A DNA stretch of 23,088 nucleotides from a virus, in IMG/VR virus record IMGVR_UViG_3300044956_001184, positions 1 to 23,088 of that record; one strand, given 5' to 3'. The position numbers and the translations under genes were made by a program. Shown here piece after piece: positions 4,077 through 23,059 of this stretch; the stretch's first letter is position 1, and each line of letters opens with the position of its first letter. The notes beneath the pieces were generated by a model. The model made no database searches. It was not told the DNA's origin and saw only the letters and a program-made list of their open reading frames with translations.

Positions 4077-5519
4077 TCAATAAAATTGGTCATAGCTTAT
4101 AAAACGTCCTTCATCGAGATCATAATAACCCTCTCTGTTTTGTCCATCATCATTCACTTGTTTTGTCTCTGGCGCACTGTTTGCAGCTTGCCAATATTGC
4201 TCAACAACACTAGGCTGTGATGCAGCAGCAGAATTATCTGGCTGTGATGGAGCAGAAGAATTTATTGACTGAGATGGTTGATCTGCAGCTTGAGTGGTTT
4301 GTGTAGGAGCATAGAAAGCAGTGCCTTCGTAAGTGTATCCTAAGCTTCCTAATGTTTGCTGTTCTTTAGGGTCAGTTGACAGTATGTGAGCTCCCGTAGA
4401 GGGATTGTAATAACGTTCTACTGCTTCAGTACCTTCTTTTTTTTCACTGTAGGCTGCACCAACAGTACCTTCTAGTACATAACCAGCTCTTGAAGCCGCA
4501 TCAATTTCTTCTTTACTGGAAGTCAATAAGTGATTGCCAGTTTGAGGGTTAAATAACCTAGATACATCTTTGGCGCCTTCAACTGAATCTTTGTTTGCGA
4601 AAAGTTTAAAAGAAGGTCCTTCCAAAACATAATTTTTTAAATTTTCGGCACTAGGATTAGAAGTATAAAGGTGTTTAGCTATTGTTGGGTCGTAATAACG
4701 ACTCATTGCCATTATTTGTGGTTGCTGTAAAGGTATATTTGGTTTTGGTGTAGTATCTGTAGCTGGTGGTTTATCATCTTTTTTAGGTTCTTCAGGAGGT
4801 TCTGGTGGCGCAAAAGGAATTTTATCTATAGGTTTAGTAGGCTCAACAAGAGGCTTTTCAGGCTTTGAATCATCATCTCCGCCCCCACCATCGTCTGAAC
4901 TTTCAATGTCAACTTTGGAGGATGCCGGATAATTTATATTAGGAGAGGAACCAGGAGGTGGAGAAAAAGTAGGTGTTGAAGGTGCTGAAGGTGCTGAAGG
5001 TGCTGAAGGTGTTGAAGGTGTTGAAGGTGTTGAAGGTGTTGAAGGTGTTGAAGGTGCTGTAGATATATTATTCGATTTAGGCAAAAACTCCGTATCTAAA
5101 GGTCTTGCGTAACGTATAACACCCCCTTTTTGATGCGAGGGTTTGTTATAGCTTAGTCTATCTCCCTTGATATTAAATTTGTCGCCAGCGTATTGGGGTT
5201 TAATGAATTGATCGAAAAAATCTTGTCCTAAAGAGTCTAAAAATTCTTTTGTTGAATCGTCTAAATTTGTCGATGTGGATGTTGCTTTTGATATACTTGT
5301 AGGTTGTGTCGTATTTGTTGTAGATAAATTGTTTTTTGCTGCTGAATCAGGTCCTTCGCCTGCCATTCTGATTGATTCTGTATCTTCTTGCTCTGTAATA
5401 CCAAGAGCTTTTCTTTCTTCCGGCGTGGAAAGCTCTAAATAATTCTTGGGAAACAATGTGTCACCAGCCGAAAATGACTCACCTGGTATTAATTTTTTTC
5501 CGCCTAGAAAGTAAGCCAC
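4077..5519 (-). CDS. Tail-fibre/adhesin-like protein with three DUF5648 repeats
   Basis: A 480-aa modular protein with a GTG start at 5519. Residues 1-41 (GESFSAGDTLFPKNYLELST, then PEERKALGI) resemble the N-terminal segment that opens many phage tail-fibre proteins. Residues 153-187 are a Ser-Thr/Ala-Pro tandem repeat, followed by Asp/Gly- and Pro/Lys-rich linkers to about 268. Residues 273-405 hold three DUF5648-type repeats, each with a RYYDP/RLFNP/RYYNP strand, a H-x-L-x-T-S/T turn, a Y-V-L-E-G or YTYEG strand and an aromatic end. The repeat occurs in secreted and surface proteins, often beside carbohydrate-active domains. After a Ser/Gln linker the protein ends EGYYDLDEGRFISYDQFY. A virion surface or receptor-binding role is likely. 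It lies oddly among replication genes, nine bases before the zinc-loop gene. Confidence 0.65.
   Translation of the reverse strand: MAYFLGGKKLIPGESFSAGDTLFPKNYLELSTPEERKALGITEQEDTESIRMAGEGPDSAAKNNLSTTNTTQPTSISKATSTSTNLDDSTKEFLDSLGQDFFDQFIKPQYAGDKFNIKGDRLSYNKPSHQKGGVIRYARPLDTEFLPKSNNISTAPSTPSTPSTPSTPSTPSAPSAPSAPSTPTFSPPPGSSPNINYPASSKVDIESSDDGGGGDDDSKPEKPLVEPTKPIDKIPFAPPEPPEEPKKDDKPPATDTTPKPNIPLQQPQIMAMSRYYDPTIAKHLYTSNPSAENLKNYVLEGPSFKLFANKDSVEGAKDVSRLFNPQTGNHLLTSSKEEIDAASRAGYVLEGTVGAAYSEKKEGTEAVERYYNPSTGAHILSTDPKEQQTLGSLGYTYEGTAFYAPTQTTQAADQPSQSINSSAPSQPDNSAAASQPSVVEQYWQAANSAPETKQVNDDGQNREGYYDLDEGRFISYDQFY
4972..5061 (-). repeat. 9-bp tandem repeat encoding Ser-Thr/Ala-Pro
   Basis: Nine consecutive units of GGTGYTGAA (plus-strand spelling) fill 4972-5052, with a tenth imperfect unit to 5061. 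The units differ only at the Y position (C or T), in blocks of like units: one T, three C, then five T. Each unit codes for Ser-Thr-Pro or Ser-Ala-Pro on the minus strand. Gain or loss of units keeps the reading frame and changes the length of the linker in the DUF5648 protein. Confidence 0.95.
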
Positions 5520-20300: not shown

Positions 20301-20993
20301 ATGGTCTCCCTTGATCCCTACGTCTCCGTTTTCGGGCTCATTGTCCGTACACCTCCGGATCCGCCAGACGGTCCTGTCTTAAAAGAATACGATTTGGACT
20401 CATTTAGAGTCGTTGAACAAGCTGCAACGGCCACCTTGCATTGCAAATGTGGTCGTAGCGACCCTTTTACCCTGTCCATTCCCGACCTTTCGCGAATTCA
20501 TCCGGTAAGGGGGTTTTACGCTTGTCCAACGTGTCTAAAAGAGCTTCACTCGGCTCGTACAGTCGCTCAAAAGGTTGCGGTCTGGCTACGGCAAAACAAC
20601 TCGGTTATCACCCCACTCAAACATCTTTTTTTACCTAATAATTTGACAAGATTTATGGATCCAGACTCTAGATTGGCCACGAGGCCGCGCCGGTTTATTT
20701 ATAGTAGTTACTATGACGTCGATCTTAGTTCTAAAGAAAACATTATTTCTACTTGTAATGAATCTCATTGTGTAAATCCTTTACATTGTCAAATAGCAAA
20801 CAGCCCTGCTACTAAAATTACATCCCAAATGGTTGAGGACACCGCAAAATGGATAAAAAAAGGTATATCAAACAAAACTTTGCAGGAACTTATAGAAATA
20901 AAATACGGGGTTTCTTTGAGTATGCGCAGCATAAGCAACATAAAACGGTCAGCGACCTTATTGATCGAAACGCAGACTTATTGTACGTGCTAG
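20301..20993 (+). CDS. Zinc ribbon + zinc-loop + HTH protein, probable DNA-binding regulator or nuclease relative
   Basis: First gene of the rightward block, 230 aa. After a Pro-rich start, residues 48-78 form a four-cysteine zinc ribbon (HCKCGRSDPF at C48/C50 and YACPTCLK at C75/C78). Residues 150-163 carry STCNESHCVNPLHC, the C-x-x-x-x-C-V-N-P-x-H loop of HNH homing-type endonucleases. Residues 172-216 form a helix-turn-helix (KITSQMVEDTAKWIKKGISN, then LQELIEIKYGVSLSMRSISN). The zinc-loop plus HTH arrangement matches the protein at 3510-4067, suggesting a common ancestor. It may control early transcription, or be a remnant of a mobile endonuclease; no clear catalytic His-Asn-His set is seen. 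The ATG at 20301 has no Shine-Dalgarno. The last ten residues are low-information. Confidence 0.65.
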   Translation: MVSLDPYVSVFGLIVRTPPDPPDGPVLKEYDLDSFRVVEQAATATLHCKCGRSDPFTLSIPDLSRIHPVRGFYACPTCLKELHSARTVAQKVAVWLRQNNSVITPLKHLFLPNNLTRFMDPDSRLATRPRRFIYSSYYDVDLSSKENIISTCNESHCVNPLHCQIANSPATKITSQMVEDTAKWIKKGISNKTLQELIEIKYGVSLSMRSISNIKRSATLLIETQTYCTC

Positions 20994-21199
20994 TCTACCA
21001 ACGGGTAATGTCCGCCAATGAACTTATTAAATTTTTAGAGTTCCCAAAAGCTAGAGTATTTAAAAGTCTCAAAGAACTAAAAAATTGCAAATTTGTAATT
21101 CAGGTAAACTTTGAAAACCATACTCTATATGCAATAAATGGCCATTATCTTCACTTTATAAAAACCCTACTTCGCTATGATGAGCTTACCCGAATCTAA
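20987..21199 (+). CDS. Small winged-helix-like DNA-binding protein
   Basis: The reliable part reads VLVYQRVMSANELIKFLEFP, then KARVFKSLKELKNCKFVIQV, NFENHTLYAINGHYLHFI: helix, recognition helix with K-A-R-V-F-K-S-L-K-E-L, then a beta wing and a last helix. This is the outline of winged-helix regulators of the ArsR/MarR kind. The frame is open back to an ATG at 20849, but that would overlap the HTH-coding part of the previous gene by 145 bases, and the extra residues look like out-of-frame translation. GTG at 20987, overlapping the previous stop by seven bases, is chosen; TTG 20981 or ATG 21008 are alternatives. The 3' end overlaps the next gene by 23 bases. Confidence 0.55.
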   Translation: MLVYQRVMSANELIKFLEFPKARVFKSLKELKNCKFVIQVNFENHTLYAINGHYLHFIKTLLRYDELTRI

Positions 21200-21596
21200 A
21201 CCTTGTCTTTGGAACGAAAAATATGTTATTGAAAATTTACCTTCTTGGTTATATTCCGACAACCAAGAACCTAATTCCGCCAAAGAATGCAGAGCTAAAA
21301 TTTCAGCTTTGAAATATACAATTCAAGACATTGATTTACAAATTGAAATACGTGAACTTGAATTAAAAAATGGTCTCAGTCGCCATGGGTCGTCTTTTGA
21401 GTTTGAAAAGTGGAAAGTACAAGCACTAAGAGCAAAACAGACACATACCTACCTTCTTAATGCTTATAGCTATTGGCTACTTTTAAACGAACAAGATACT
21501 AGTATTACTAATATTTCAGAAATAGTGAAAAAACTAATAAAACTTTTAATTGAAGAACCTAAAGATTTTACCGCTCAGTTAGAAGAATTGCTCTAA
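21177..21596 (+). CDS. Coiled-coil 139-aa protein, function unknown
   Basis: After PSWLYSDNQEPNSAKECRAK the protein continues as a long helix (ISALKYTIQDIDLQIEIREL), a break at GLSRHGSSFEF, then a second helix (EKWKVQALRAKQTHTYLLNA) and a C-terminal helix (IVKKLIKLLIEE). The two helices could pair as an antiparallel coiled coil. The pattern of a short N-terminal W-x-x-x-L-P-x-W box and a K-x-x-I-x-D-I-x-x-Q-I helix recurs in small phage proteins of unknown role. It overlaps the winged-helix gene by 23 bases (ATGATGAG region), so it is part of the same operon. No catalytic motif is seen. The start may be either of two adjacent ATGs (21177 or 21180). Confidence 0.7.
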   Translation: MMSLPESKPCLWNEKYVIENLPSWLYSDNQEPNSAKECRAKISALKYTIQDIDLQIEIRELELKNGLSRHGSSFEFEKWKVQALRAKQTHTYLLNAYSYWLLLNEQDTSITNISEIVKKLIKLLIEEPKDFTAQLEELL

Positions 21597-21600
21597 AATA

Positions 21601-21727
21601 GAGCTGCCGGTTATTGAAAGAAGGGTTGTTAACCGGTAACGTGGAGGTGCTAGGTCTTTTCACCCTTTCGGCTTAGCAGTAAGTGATCTCTTGTGCCTGG
21701 TGCCAGGTGCCGGAGCGGCCTCCACAC
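21601..21727 (+). ncRNA. Structured RNA candidate in the leader of the 21741 gene
   Basis: Between two AT-rich genes lies a clearly GC-richer, non-coding stretch with nested complementarity. CCGGTTA (21607-21613) pairs perfectly with TAACCGG (21630-21636). GTGGAGG (21641-21647) pairs perfectly with CCTCCAC (21719-21725), enclosing TGCTA/TAGCA (21648-21652 with 21674-21678) and CCTG/CAGG (21696-21699 with 21704-21707). The outer 7-bp stem closes a multibranch fold of 85 bases. No T-tract follows, so it is not a simple terminator. It ends 15 bases before the next ATG, which lacks a Shine-Dalgarno. It could be a cis-regulatory leader, an RNA processing site or a free small RNA. I match it to no known riboswitch. 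Confidence 0.5.
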
Positions 21728-21740
21728 GACTTCTAGATTC

Positions 21741-22085
21741 ATGTACTTTATTAAAGAAAAACTTATGTCCTCCCTCCCAATCAAAGATATTCTTGAAATT
21801 TTTAGAAGCATAGATACTTCTTTACAGATTTTAGCGAATACAAAATCTGGGAATGTAACCACAGCATTTATTAGCAAAAAAGCTATAGCAGAGCGAATGG
21901 GAGTAAATCCCGTCACAATAGATAAATTGATTTATCAAGGTATCACTTCAAAAGGAAAATCTGGTCTGGTCGAGGGCAGACATTACTGCAAAATAGATTT
22001 GACGGAAAACAACACCAGTAATTTTCTTTACGACTCTGCTAAAGTCCTAGCAGACGCTTGGAAATCGTTCCAAAACTATGATTAA
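21741..22085 (+). CDS. Small HTH (excisionase/MerR-like) DNA-binding protein
   Basis: The product reads MYFIKEKLMSSLPIKDILEI, then an amphipathic helix (FRSIDTSLQILAN), a helix-turn-helix AFISKKAIAERMGVNPVTID, then KLIYQGITSKGKSGLVEGRH and YCKIDLTE as the wing, and a tail LYDSAKVLADAWKSF. The K-x-x-I-A-E-R-M-G-V-N-P-V-T-I-D core with a following E-G-R-H-Y box is typical of excisionase or MerR-type small phage regulators. ATG at 21741 is used; ATG at 21765 (MSSLP) is an alternative. An upstream in-frame ATG at 21693 lies within the structured RNA and its residues look non-coding. It overlaps the next gene by eight bases. Confidence 0.65.
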   Translation: MYFIKEKLMSSLPIKDILEIFRSIDTSLQILANTKSGNVTTAFISKKAIAERMGVNPVTIDKLIYQGITSKGKSGLVEGRHYCKIDLTENNTSNFLYDSAKVLADAWKSFQNYD

Positions 22086-22494
22086 TCTTGGAGAAAGAGC
22101 AAAGAAACTCGCTTCCTCATTATTTGGGGGAAATGAAGTCAAAAATCGTATTGCAAAAAGCACAATCAAGCTCTTAATAAATGATATTATAACCTTAAAC
22201 GCAGAATTTGCTGACGCAAAAGGAGAAGGAGCTTTATTTTTTAATCCAATTTTCCCAAATTGTAGTCAGTATTTAACTTTAAAAGAGATTCAAAATGATA
22301 TCTCTTTAGCCGAAGAGGTATATGATAATTACATGGCAGATTTTTTGAAAAAACTTATAAATATGATTCAAAAAGAAGATGTAAAGAAAAGTCCCGTTGT
22401 GGTTATGGTTAACTTCACAGGTTTGTCGGCTCATCGTTTAAGTTTAGAAAGTCTTGACAAAAGGATTGACACTTTAATAAATGCCGTTAGCTGA
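22078..22494 (+). CDS. Unrecognised 138-aa protein
   Basis: A mainly helical protein: INLGERAKKLASSLFGGNEV, a helix KSTIKLLINDIITLNAEFAD, then AKGEGALFFNPIFPNCSQYL, TLKEIQNDISLAEEVYDNYM and a helix to LINMIQKED. A C-terminal strand (SPVVVMVNFTGLSAHRLSLE) follows. The G-E-G-A-L-F-F-x-P and Y-L-T-L-x-E-I-x-x-D-I-x-x-A-E-E blocks look conserved and resemble unassigned proteins in other phages, by memory only. It overlaps its upstream neighbour by eight bases and its downstream one by 14, so it is tightly coupled within the early-type rightward operon. I cannot suggest a function. Confidence 0.7.
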   Translation: MINLGERAKKLASSLFGGNEVKNRIAKSTIKLLINDIITLNAEFADAKGEGALFFNPIFPNCSQYLTLKEIQNDISLAEEVYDNYMADFLKKLINMIQKEDVKKSPVVVMVNFTGLSAHRLSLESLDKRIDTLINAVS

Positions 22495-23059
22495 TCGAGA
22501 TTTTGTTTCACCTCCGGAAATAATCGGTGTCACCACTTCATTTTTTGGTGGTCAGATCGAACTTGACCCTGCATCTAGTGATACAGCTAATGAGTTAGTG
22601 TGCGCGAATAAGTATTTTACACATGAACATAATGGCTTAAAACAAATATGGAAAGCAAAAAACATATATCTTTACCCTCCTAGGGATTTTTTATTTAGTA
22701 GTGAGCAACCAATAGACACAAATGTATTCTATAAAAAAAGAAGATTTGTCAAGTCAGCTCAAAGAATTTGGTTAGAAGAATGTTTAAAAAAATATAGAAA
22801 GAACGAATTTGACGAAAGTATTGTCTTTTTAACTTCCACAGAAGTAGCTTTATTGGTTACACAACGTTTAAAAATAGATGTGCCTGTTTGCATTTTGAAC
22901 AAACGGCCAGAACTTTATATTGACACTCCCGGCCTACCTAAGTTAAATAACGCAAGATGTTTTGGCTTTATATTTTATTTTCCTCGATTAATAAATCCAA
23001 AAGATAGAATTTCAGAATTTATCGATTTGTATAGTAATCTGGGTCGTGTATATTGTTAA
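22481..23059 (+). CDS. Dam-like phage adenine-methyltransferase family protein with altered catalytic motif
   Basis: The 192-aa product follows the phage N6-adenine methyltransferase (DNA_N-6-adenine-MT) layout: a V-S-P-P-E-I-I start (9-15), GGQIELDPASSDTANELVCA (23-42) with the SAM-linked L-D-P-A-S, NKYFTHEHNGLKQIWKAK (43-60), then the strand ending in the catalytic loop (IYLYPPRD, 62-69). Active members have D/N-P-P-Y; here residues 65-68 are Y-P-P-R. Later parts, QRIWLEECLKKY, SIVFLTSTEVALLV and CFGFIFYFP, fit the remaining strands. It ends LYSNLGRVYC. Either this clade uses a different motif or it is inactive. It could protect phage DNA from restriction if active. The ATG overlaps the upstream gene by 14 bases. 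Confidence 0.65.
   Translation: MPLADRDFVSPPEIIGVTTSFFGGQIELDPASSDTANELVCANKYFTHEHNGLKQIWKAKNIYLYPPRDFLFSSEQPIDTNVFYKKRRFVKSAQRIWLEECLKKYRKNEFDESIVFLTSTEVALLVTQRLKIDVPVCILNKRPELYIDTPGLPKLNNARCFGFIFYFPRLINPKDRISEFIDLYSNLGRVYC

Follow-up and report, generated by a model that had tools for sequence, protein, structure and literature searches.

Background

Structured leaders and oligomerising phage RNAs are, as kinds, already known. Natural RNA homomers are rare, with the known cases being mostly large RNAs or retroviral genomes. GOLLD, a natural homo-oligomeric RNA, is known from phages. The pRNA of phi29 is likewise encoded by a phage; it is approximately 120 nt long, contains a three-way junction, shows loop-loop pairing and is capable of forming oligomers (PMC5340915, PMC7357161).

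The stretch of viral DNA analyzed here (23,088 nt, referred to as the window) contains an element of approximately 120 bases that is almost certainly a conserved structured RNA. It is similar to phi29 pRNA in its size of ~120 nt, its three-way junction and its complementary loops, which are able to interlock and are paired in 59/59 sequences here. Unlike in pRNA, the kissing interaction joins the 5’ outer hairpin with P3, and the third arm bears a palindrome; in addition, the element is encoded in a predicted mRNA leader far from TerL, is absent in Synechococcus phage S-EIV1 and lost in one relative (L166), and has neither a sequence match to pRNA nor a match to the Rfam pRNA model. With GOLLD, ROOL and OLE the element shares a symmetric loop that switches between palindromes (PMC12286853), although the multimer is predicted from sequence here, and these RNAs are several hundred nt long, whereas the element described here is ~120 nt long, has another fold and one putative self-contact, and is linked in cis to a regulator gene.

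Two leader RNAs offer further points of comparison. Like the HIV-1 dimerisation initiation site, the element has a self-complementary hairpin tip in a 5’ leader (PMC4066764), but the tip is four bases within a 12-nt palindrome and belongs to a DNA phage mRNA, which is not known to be packaged. The Guanidine-II riboswitch also has a short palindromic loop contact, of two central bases, in a leader RNA (PMC7357161); the element differs from it in having no ACGR loops, another architecture and no guanidine-related genes. Finally, the operon downstream of the element has a counterpart in S-EIV1, where the order of the homologous HTH, DNA-binding and Dam-like genes is identical and a -10-like box immediately precedes them, but the leader is short and lacks the RNA.

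Fold and conservation of the element

Folding of the window together with comparison of relatives showed an anatomy of ~120 nt in which the P1 hairpin comes first and is followed by P2, P3 and P4, arranged as a three-way junction (Table 1). Two perfect stems had been reported in a previous sequence-only reading of this DNA, and both were found in place; CCGGTTA (21607-21613) pairs with TAACCGG (21630-21636), and GTGGAGG pairs with CCTCCAC to close an 85-nt domain with two hairpins inside. P1 exceeds the earlier description by two extra closing pairs, which bring it to 9 bp, and P3, at 9 bp, exceeds it as well. The stretch is non-coding, as had been proposed; the open reading frame before it stops at 21596, the HTH frame begins at 21741, and the indels of the relatives are not multiples of three. 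The sequence-only reading was correct but undersold the element; the promoter box had been missed, as had the pairing between the loops and the palindrome at the tip of P4.

Table 1. Features of the element and of the operon downstream of it (positions in the window)
Feature	Positions	Strand	Description and evidence
-10 promoter box (predicted)	21594..21599	+	TAAAAT, overlaps the upstream stop TAA; consensus match only
P1 hairpin	21605..21638	+	stem 21605-21613 / 21630-21638, loop 21614-21629; covariation
Kissing helix, 5’ half (P1 loop)	21621..21626	+	AAGGGT; pairs with 21662-21667
P2, 5’ strand	21641..21647	+	GTGGAGG, closes the three-way junction; rich in purines in nearly all relatives; 7/7 pairs change on both sides
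P3 hairpin	21648..21678	+	stem 21648-21656 / 21670-21678, loop 21657-21669 UUUUCACCCUUUC; 8/8 modelled pairs covary
Kissing helix, 3’ half (P3 loop)	21662..21667	+	ACCCTT; pairs with 21621-21626
J3/4 junction strand	21679..21687	+	GUAAGUGAU, unpaired, conserved; consensus GYAAnYGAn
P4 hairpin	21688..21715	+	21688-21700 / 21703-21715; 10/12 pairs covary
Palindromic P4 tip	21696..21707	+	CCUGGUGCCAGG, pairs with itself when G.U is allowed; presumed site of a symmetric homodimer contact; comparison
P2, 3’ strand	21719..21725	+	CCTCCAC, its end lies 15 nt upstream of the HTH start codon; sequence
HTH gene	21741..22085	+	114 aa; only weak signals, MerR-like or terminase-small/excisionase-like; follows every RNA found
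Second gene of operon	22078..22494	+	138 aa; weak match to phage DNA-binding family phrog_4151 (E=0.003); S-EIV1 homologue AHV82251
Third gene of operon, Dam-like	22481..23059	+	192 aa; phrog_111 (E=8e-7); S-EIV1 homologue AHV82250

The folding energy in the window was modestly unusual (z = -1.9, with 4 of 200 shuffles folding equally well), and the mean across 59 relatives was z = -2.4. With z values of only about -2, single-sequence folding energy was dropped as proof; it is the comparative evidence, in the form of covariation, that sets the element apart from chance. In an alignment of 42 sequences that was built from sequence alone, covariation scored on a hand-drawn structure was 0.596; shuffling the partners gave 0.202±0.010, and sliding them gave no more than 0.167. 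Covariation was 0.721, with 39 of 43 pairs varying on both sides, in a covariance-model alignment of 59 sequences, which leans towards the nested stems and whose model contained neither the kissing helix nor the palindrome. All 10 modelled pairs of P1 vary on both sides among relatives, and 91.5% of the alignment cells in P4 are paired. Across paired positions, G.U cells clearly outnumbered A.C cells (299 vs 69), and selection therefore acts on the + strand RNA. The view of the element as a real functional RNA is supported by this strong covariation, by the lack of a protein-coding explanation and by the lack of an Rfam match. Because covariation is strong and no protein-coding explanation was found, two findings that had been named as speaking against an RNA, a lack of compensatory changes and a match to a coding region, fall away.

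Conservation was also found outside the stems. Unpaired blocks around the kissing helix and the junction (GUAAGAA, UUUU...UUUC and GYAAnYGAn) are conserved, as is UUUUnnCCnUUUC in the P3 loop across the aligned relatives.

Two peculiarities of the stems were observed in addition. The 5’ strand of P2 is 89% purine in relatives vs 35-56% in P1, P3 and P4, and it remains Shine-Dalgarno-like (GGAGG, GAGG or GGGG), whereas the other stems flip freely; this bias perhaps keeps G-rich sequence off the start codon, or lets the strand touch 16S rRNA. In P4, a tandem wobble (21694-21695 with 21708-21709) flanks the palindrome, with U.G in 59/59 and G.U in 50/59 sequences, and could possibly be a metal or protein site.

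Loop-loop pairing and the palindromic tip

The P1 loop sequence AAGGGU is complementary to ACCCUU in the P3 loop, giving a kissing helix of 6 bp in which all six positions are paired in each of the 59 sequences. Compensatory changes were found at four of the six pairs, with the third pair occurring as A-U, G-C, C-G or U-A. Divergent loci, which were read for kissing pairs once the rule was known from the first set, contained the new compensated pairs AAACGG/CCGUUU, AAGCGC/GCGCUU and AACCGG/CCGGUU. Since the linker between P1 and P2 is short, the kissing helix likely forms within one molecule rather than between two.

P4 ends in a 12-nt palindrome, the central four bases of which occupy the site of the tetraloop in an ordinary hairpin. 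When G.U is counted, the tip is self-complementary in 58 of the 59 relatives; the strict rule holds over the 12-mer in 46. The central 4-mers were GCGC (20 relatives), GUAC (17), ACGU (9), GAUC (4) and AUAU (3), along with the wobble forms GUGC (4, including the window) and AUGU (1), and one odd 13-nt tip. At least 16 changes of the central 4-mer are required on the HTH protein tree, several branches of which are long or unsure. As adjacent bases cannot pair within one hairpin, the self-covariation of the tip indicates a symmetric contact between two copies, suggesting that the palindromic P4 tips probably join two RNA molecules as a symmetric homodimer. The predicted energy of the P4 homodimer averaged -16.9 kcal/mol vs -6.1 with randomised loops. 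A requirement for a pyrimidine-purine step alone was also considered and fits the tips less well, as AU centres occur and CA never does. The same palindrome-switch argument, with fewer switches, has been used for intermolecular contacts in a cryo-EM study of OLE and GOLLD (PMC12286853).

Relatives, and genomes without the RNA

The RNA was found on 97 viral contigs, including the window, and the HTH gene was directly downstream every time. When the HTH protein, and thereafter its alignment, served as the query, 56 viral contigs with the gene were identified, all of which carry the element directly upstream. Two RNA-pattern searches that were blind to protein added 12 further true loci, and in all 12 the HTH gene is next; the third gene of the operon, when used as query, led to 28 additional loci, many of them more divergent (51-116 bits). 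Real copies of the RNA numbered one per genome in the 28 records counted. These phages are relatives of S-EIV1; TerL of G014, an 87-kb relative, is 52% identical over its whole length to that of S-EIV1.

Other matches were rejected. An exact 16-mer of the P2/P3 junction matched six contigs, none of which scored with the covariance model. Three matches were attributed to chance; the one in L325 (25 bits) sits inside a terminase-like coding region, the one in L314 is only partial, and a second one in G008 reached 21.5 bits. Bacterial genomes gave chance matches only, including two pattern hits (13.7 and 8.8 bits) that were rejected by the covariance model, and a DNA similarity search of a named-phage collection gave chance matches only as well. 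No tRNA or tmRNA was found. Rfam 15 yielded no match at gathering score in the window or 7 relatives, and at E up to 10 nothing was found in the window, ribozyme families included; permissive searches of L046 and L066 returned only sub-threshold matches to unrelated lncRNA and snoRNA families. No description of the element was found in the open-licence literature. The element is a new RNA family, absent from Rfam.

While S-EIV1 has the homologous operon, none of 80 S-EIV1-type HTH loci carries the RNA. In L166 the RNA is cleanly missing, with a -10 box (TAAACT) being followed by what remains of the P2 3’ strand and by the HTH leader, and the 82-kb record holds no copy elsewhere. This is probably a natural, near-exact deletion of the RNA that spares the -10 box and the HTH gene, although an assembly error is possible. 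Given its loss in L166 and its absence from the S-EIV1-type loci, the RNA gives the impression of a control element that can be dispensed with and was inserted between promoter and gene, rather than of a core component of the virion or the packaging machine. If ever cultured, L166 would provide a ready-made natural comparison for the loss of the RNA.

Predicted promoter and translation start

A TAnnnT box (mostly TARAMT) was found 24 nt (22-26) upstream of the P1-loop motif in 41 of 42 relatives; in the remaining one, L056, TAAACT lies one base further off, at 25. In most relatives the box overlaps the upstream stop codon; in 8 of the 42 the two lie apart, which indicates that the box is conserved in its own right. 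No clear -35 box was found among the sequences with the -10 box. Transcription probably starts at the foot of P1, judging from the sequence, and the near-fixed box directly upstream suggests that the RNA is a 5’ leader beginning with P1. By box and spacing, this leader lies between the predicted promoter and the HTH start codon, which is 6-27 nt (median 11) from P2 in 40 relatives.

The HTH gene had been described as lacking a Shine-Dalgarno sequence, which is true in the window, and 37 of 40 relatives scored have none of reasonable strength; the mean Shine-Dalgarno hybrid energy of the HTH genes was +0.26 kcal/mol vs -3.2 kcal/mol for the other genes of G014. As Shine-Dalgarno sequences are mostly weak also in S-EIV1-type HTH genes that have no RNA, this feature is not specific evidence for the RNA, and the idea of the RNA as a Shine-Dalgarno replacement was dropped. 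No intrinsic terminator was identified, as the window has ACGACUUCU after P2 with no T-run, and a terminator is not conserved in relatives; the DNA after P2 is T-rich in many relatives, with U-runs in only some. Inspection of the relatives showed no conserved anti-P2 fold or terminator, so that a classical riboswitch expression platform is not apparent.

Proposed function and rival explanations

The best explanation is a 5’ leader RNA, possibly a dimer, that acts in cis on its operon; taken as a whole, we give this account about an even chance. Transcription initiated at the foot of P1, driven by the -10 box, would produce the ~120-nt 5’ leader of the HTH–DNA-binding–Dam-like operon, P1 and the three-way junction would fold and be locked by pairing of the P1 and P3 loops, and the palindromic P4 tip would pair with a second copy of the RNA. 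P2 would close 6-27 nt before a start codon without Shine-Dalgarno sequence, where the initiating ribosome must land, so that the rate of HTH translation could be set by whether the RNA is folded and/or dimerised, or by a ligand or protein favouring that state. Two points speak against this account: no riboswitch-type expression platform is apparent, and symmetric dimer contacts are seen more often in RNAs working as assemblies than in leaders. Taking the fold, the kissing helix, the self-complementary tip, the HTH linkage and the conserved -10 box as established by sequence comparison, we infer actual transcription, dimerisation in the cell, translational control and a signal. Regulation of the next gene, one of the roles proposed before, is favoured by the strict HTH linkage and by the element lying between the predicted promoter and the HTH start codon. 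Another, separation of upstream from downstream expression, holds only insofar as a new transcript start is predicted from the -10 box just ahead of the element. The comparison neither favours nor contradicts a third one, processing into a small RNA. More tentatively, and with somewhat less than an even chance, the RNA may belong to a novel class of small RNAs of phages, selected to form, by P1/P3 kissing and palindromic P4 tips, a symmetric homodimer or larger RNA-only assembly whose state is coupled to expression of the regulator operon; it would then be a dose-sensing leader based on quaternary structure.

The main rival is a trans-acting phage non-coding RNA that forms a homodimer or larger assembly in the manner of phi29 pRNA or GOLLD/ROOL, with read-through from its promoter feeding the HTH operon. 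We consider this rather unlikely, but it would account for the elaborate self-contained fold with one symmetric self-contact, for the predicted 5’ end exactly at P1 and the closing of the domain by P2 with T-rich DNA thereafter in many relatives, and for the single real copy per genome (28 records); the switching of adjacent loop bases in the palindrome is also as seen at OLE and GOLLD intermolecular contacts (PMC12286853). However, on all 97 contigs the RNA is found with the HTH gene and nowhere else, no terminator recurs consistently, with the window lacking a T-run, and the absence of a copy in L166 and in S-EIV1, despite the 52% identity of its TerL to that of a relative, speaks against a core role in packaging or the virion. 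The linkage itself would be expected of a trans-acting RNA too, since the gene order of the island is conserved as a whole.

The other readings rank lower. A ligand-binding riboswitch, which would be a sub-case of cis action by the leader, would use the conserved unpaired blocks as a pocket, with the ligand stabilising P2. The strong conservation of unpaired bases around the kissing helix and junction and the 5’ leader position are consistent with this, but the operon contains no metabolic gene, no alternative fold is visible and there is no resemblance to Rfam families, making this reading improbable. Self-cleavage by a new ribozyme, trimming the leader or releasing an RNA, is very unlikely; while the compact pseudoknotted fold and conserved unpaired bases would suit a ribozyme, and crystals of the hatchet ribozyme show a palindromic kissing loop of four nucleotides (PMC7357161), no Rfam family, ribozymes included, matched the window at E up to 10 and no conserved cleavage site was recognised. 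Least credible, to the point of being nearly negligible, is a DNA-level element (a palindromic operator or a replication or packaging site) that mimics RNA structure by inverted repeats. A palindrome is present and the targets of the HTH and Dam-like proteins may be DNA, but the letters of the palindrome vary with only self-complementarity being kept, the loop-loop pairing covaries, and the excess of G.U over A.C fits a + strand RNA, not DNA.

With ~120 nt, the RNA is small enough for direct structure determination, and the evolutionary evidence is exceptionally clear both for its pseudoknotted fold and for its self-pairing tip. It comes from cyanophage relatives, a widespread group whose members are mostly uncultured. 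Should dimerisation control the operon, the leader of an mRNA would be sensing in a new way how abundant it is during infection; whatever the function, the RNA family is one that Rfam is missing, and the loci found here allow its covariance model to be rebuilt.

Operon products and genomic neighbourhood

The possibility that the HTH protein is a TerS encoded beside TerL was rejected, as TerL of G014 is >20 kb off and on the opposite strand. An AlphaFold model of the HTH protein had a mean pLDDT of 56.6 and was left out of the evidence. N6-adenine methyltransferases usually carry [DN]PP[YFW]; in the alignment, the Dam-like protein has Y/F-PP-R/N at this site, suggesting that it may be catalytically inactive.

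Many relatives have an extra HNH-like gene (~140 aa) directly before the RNA (e.g., L007:5423-5848), which the clade of the window lacks (none lies between 21596 and 21606). Whichever gene precedes the RNA, HNH-like or other, its stop codon overlaps the same -10 box. In the window, 20301-23059 forms a rightward gene island amid mostly leftward tail and replication genes, and the same island, on the opposite strand, is also found among the structural genes of relatives and S-EIV1. Elsewhere in the window, positions 4077-5519 encode a protein of 480 aa that contains an extended Ser/Thr-Pro repeat (STPSTPSTP...).
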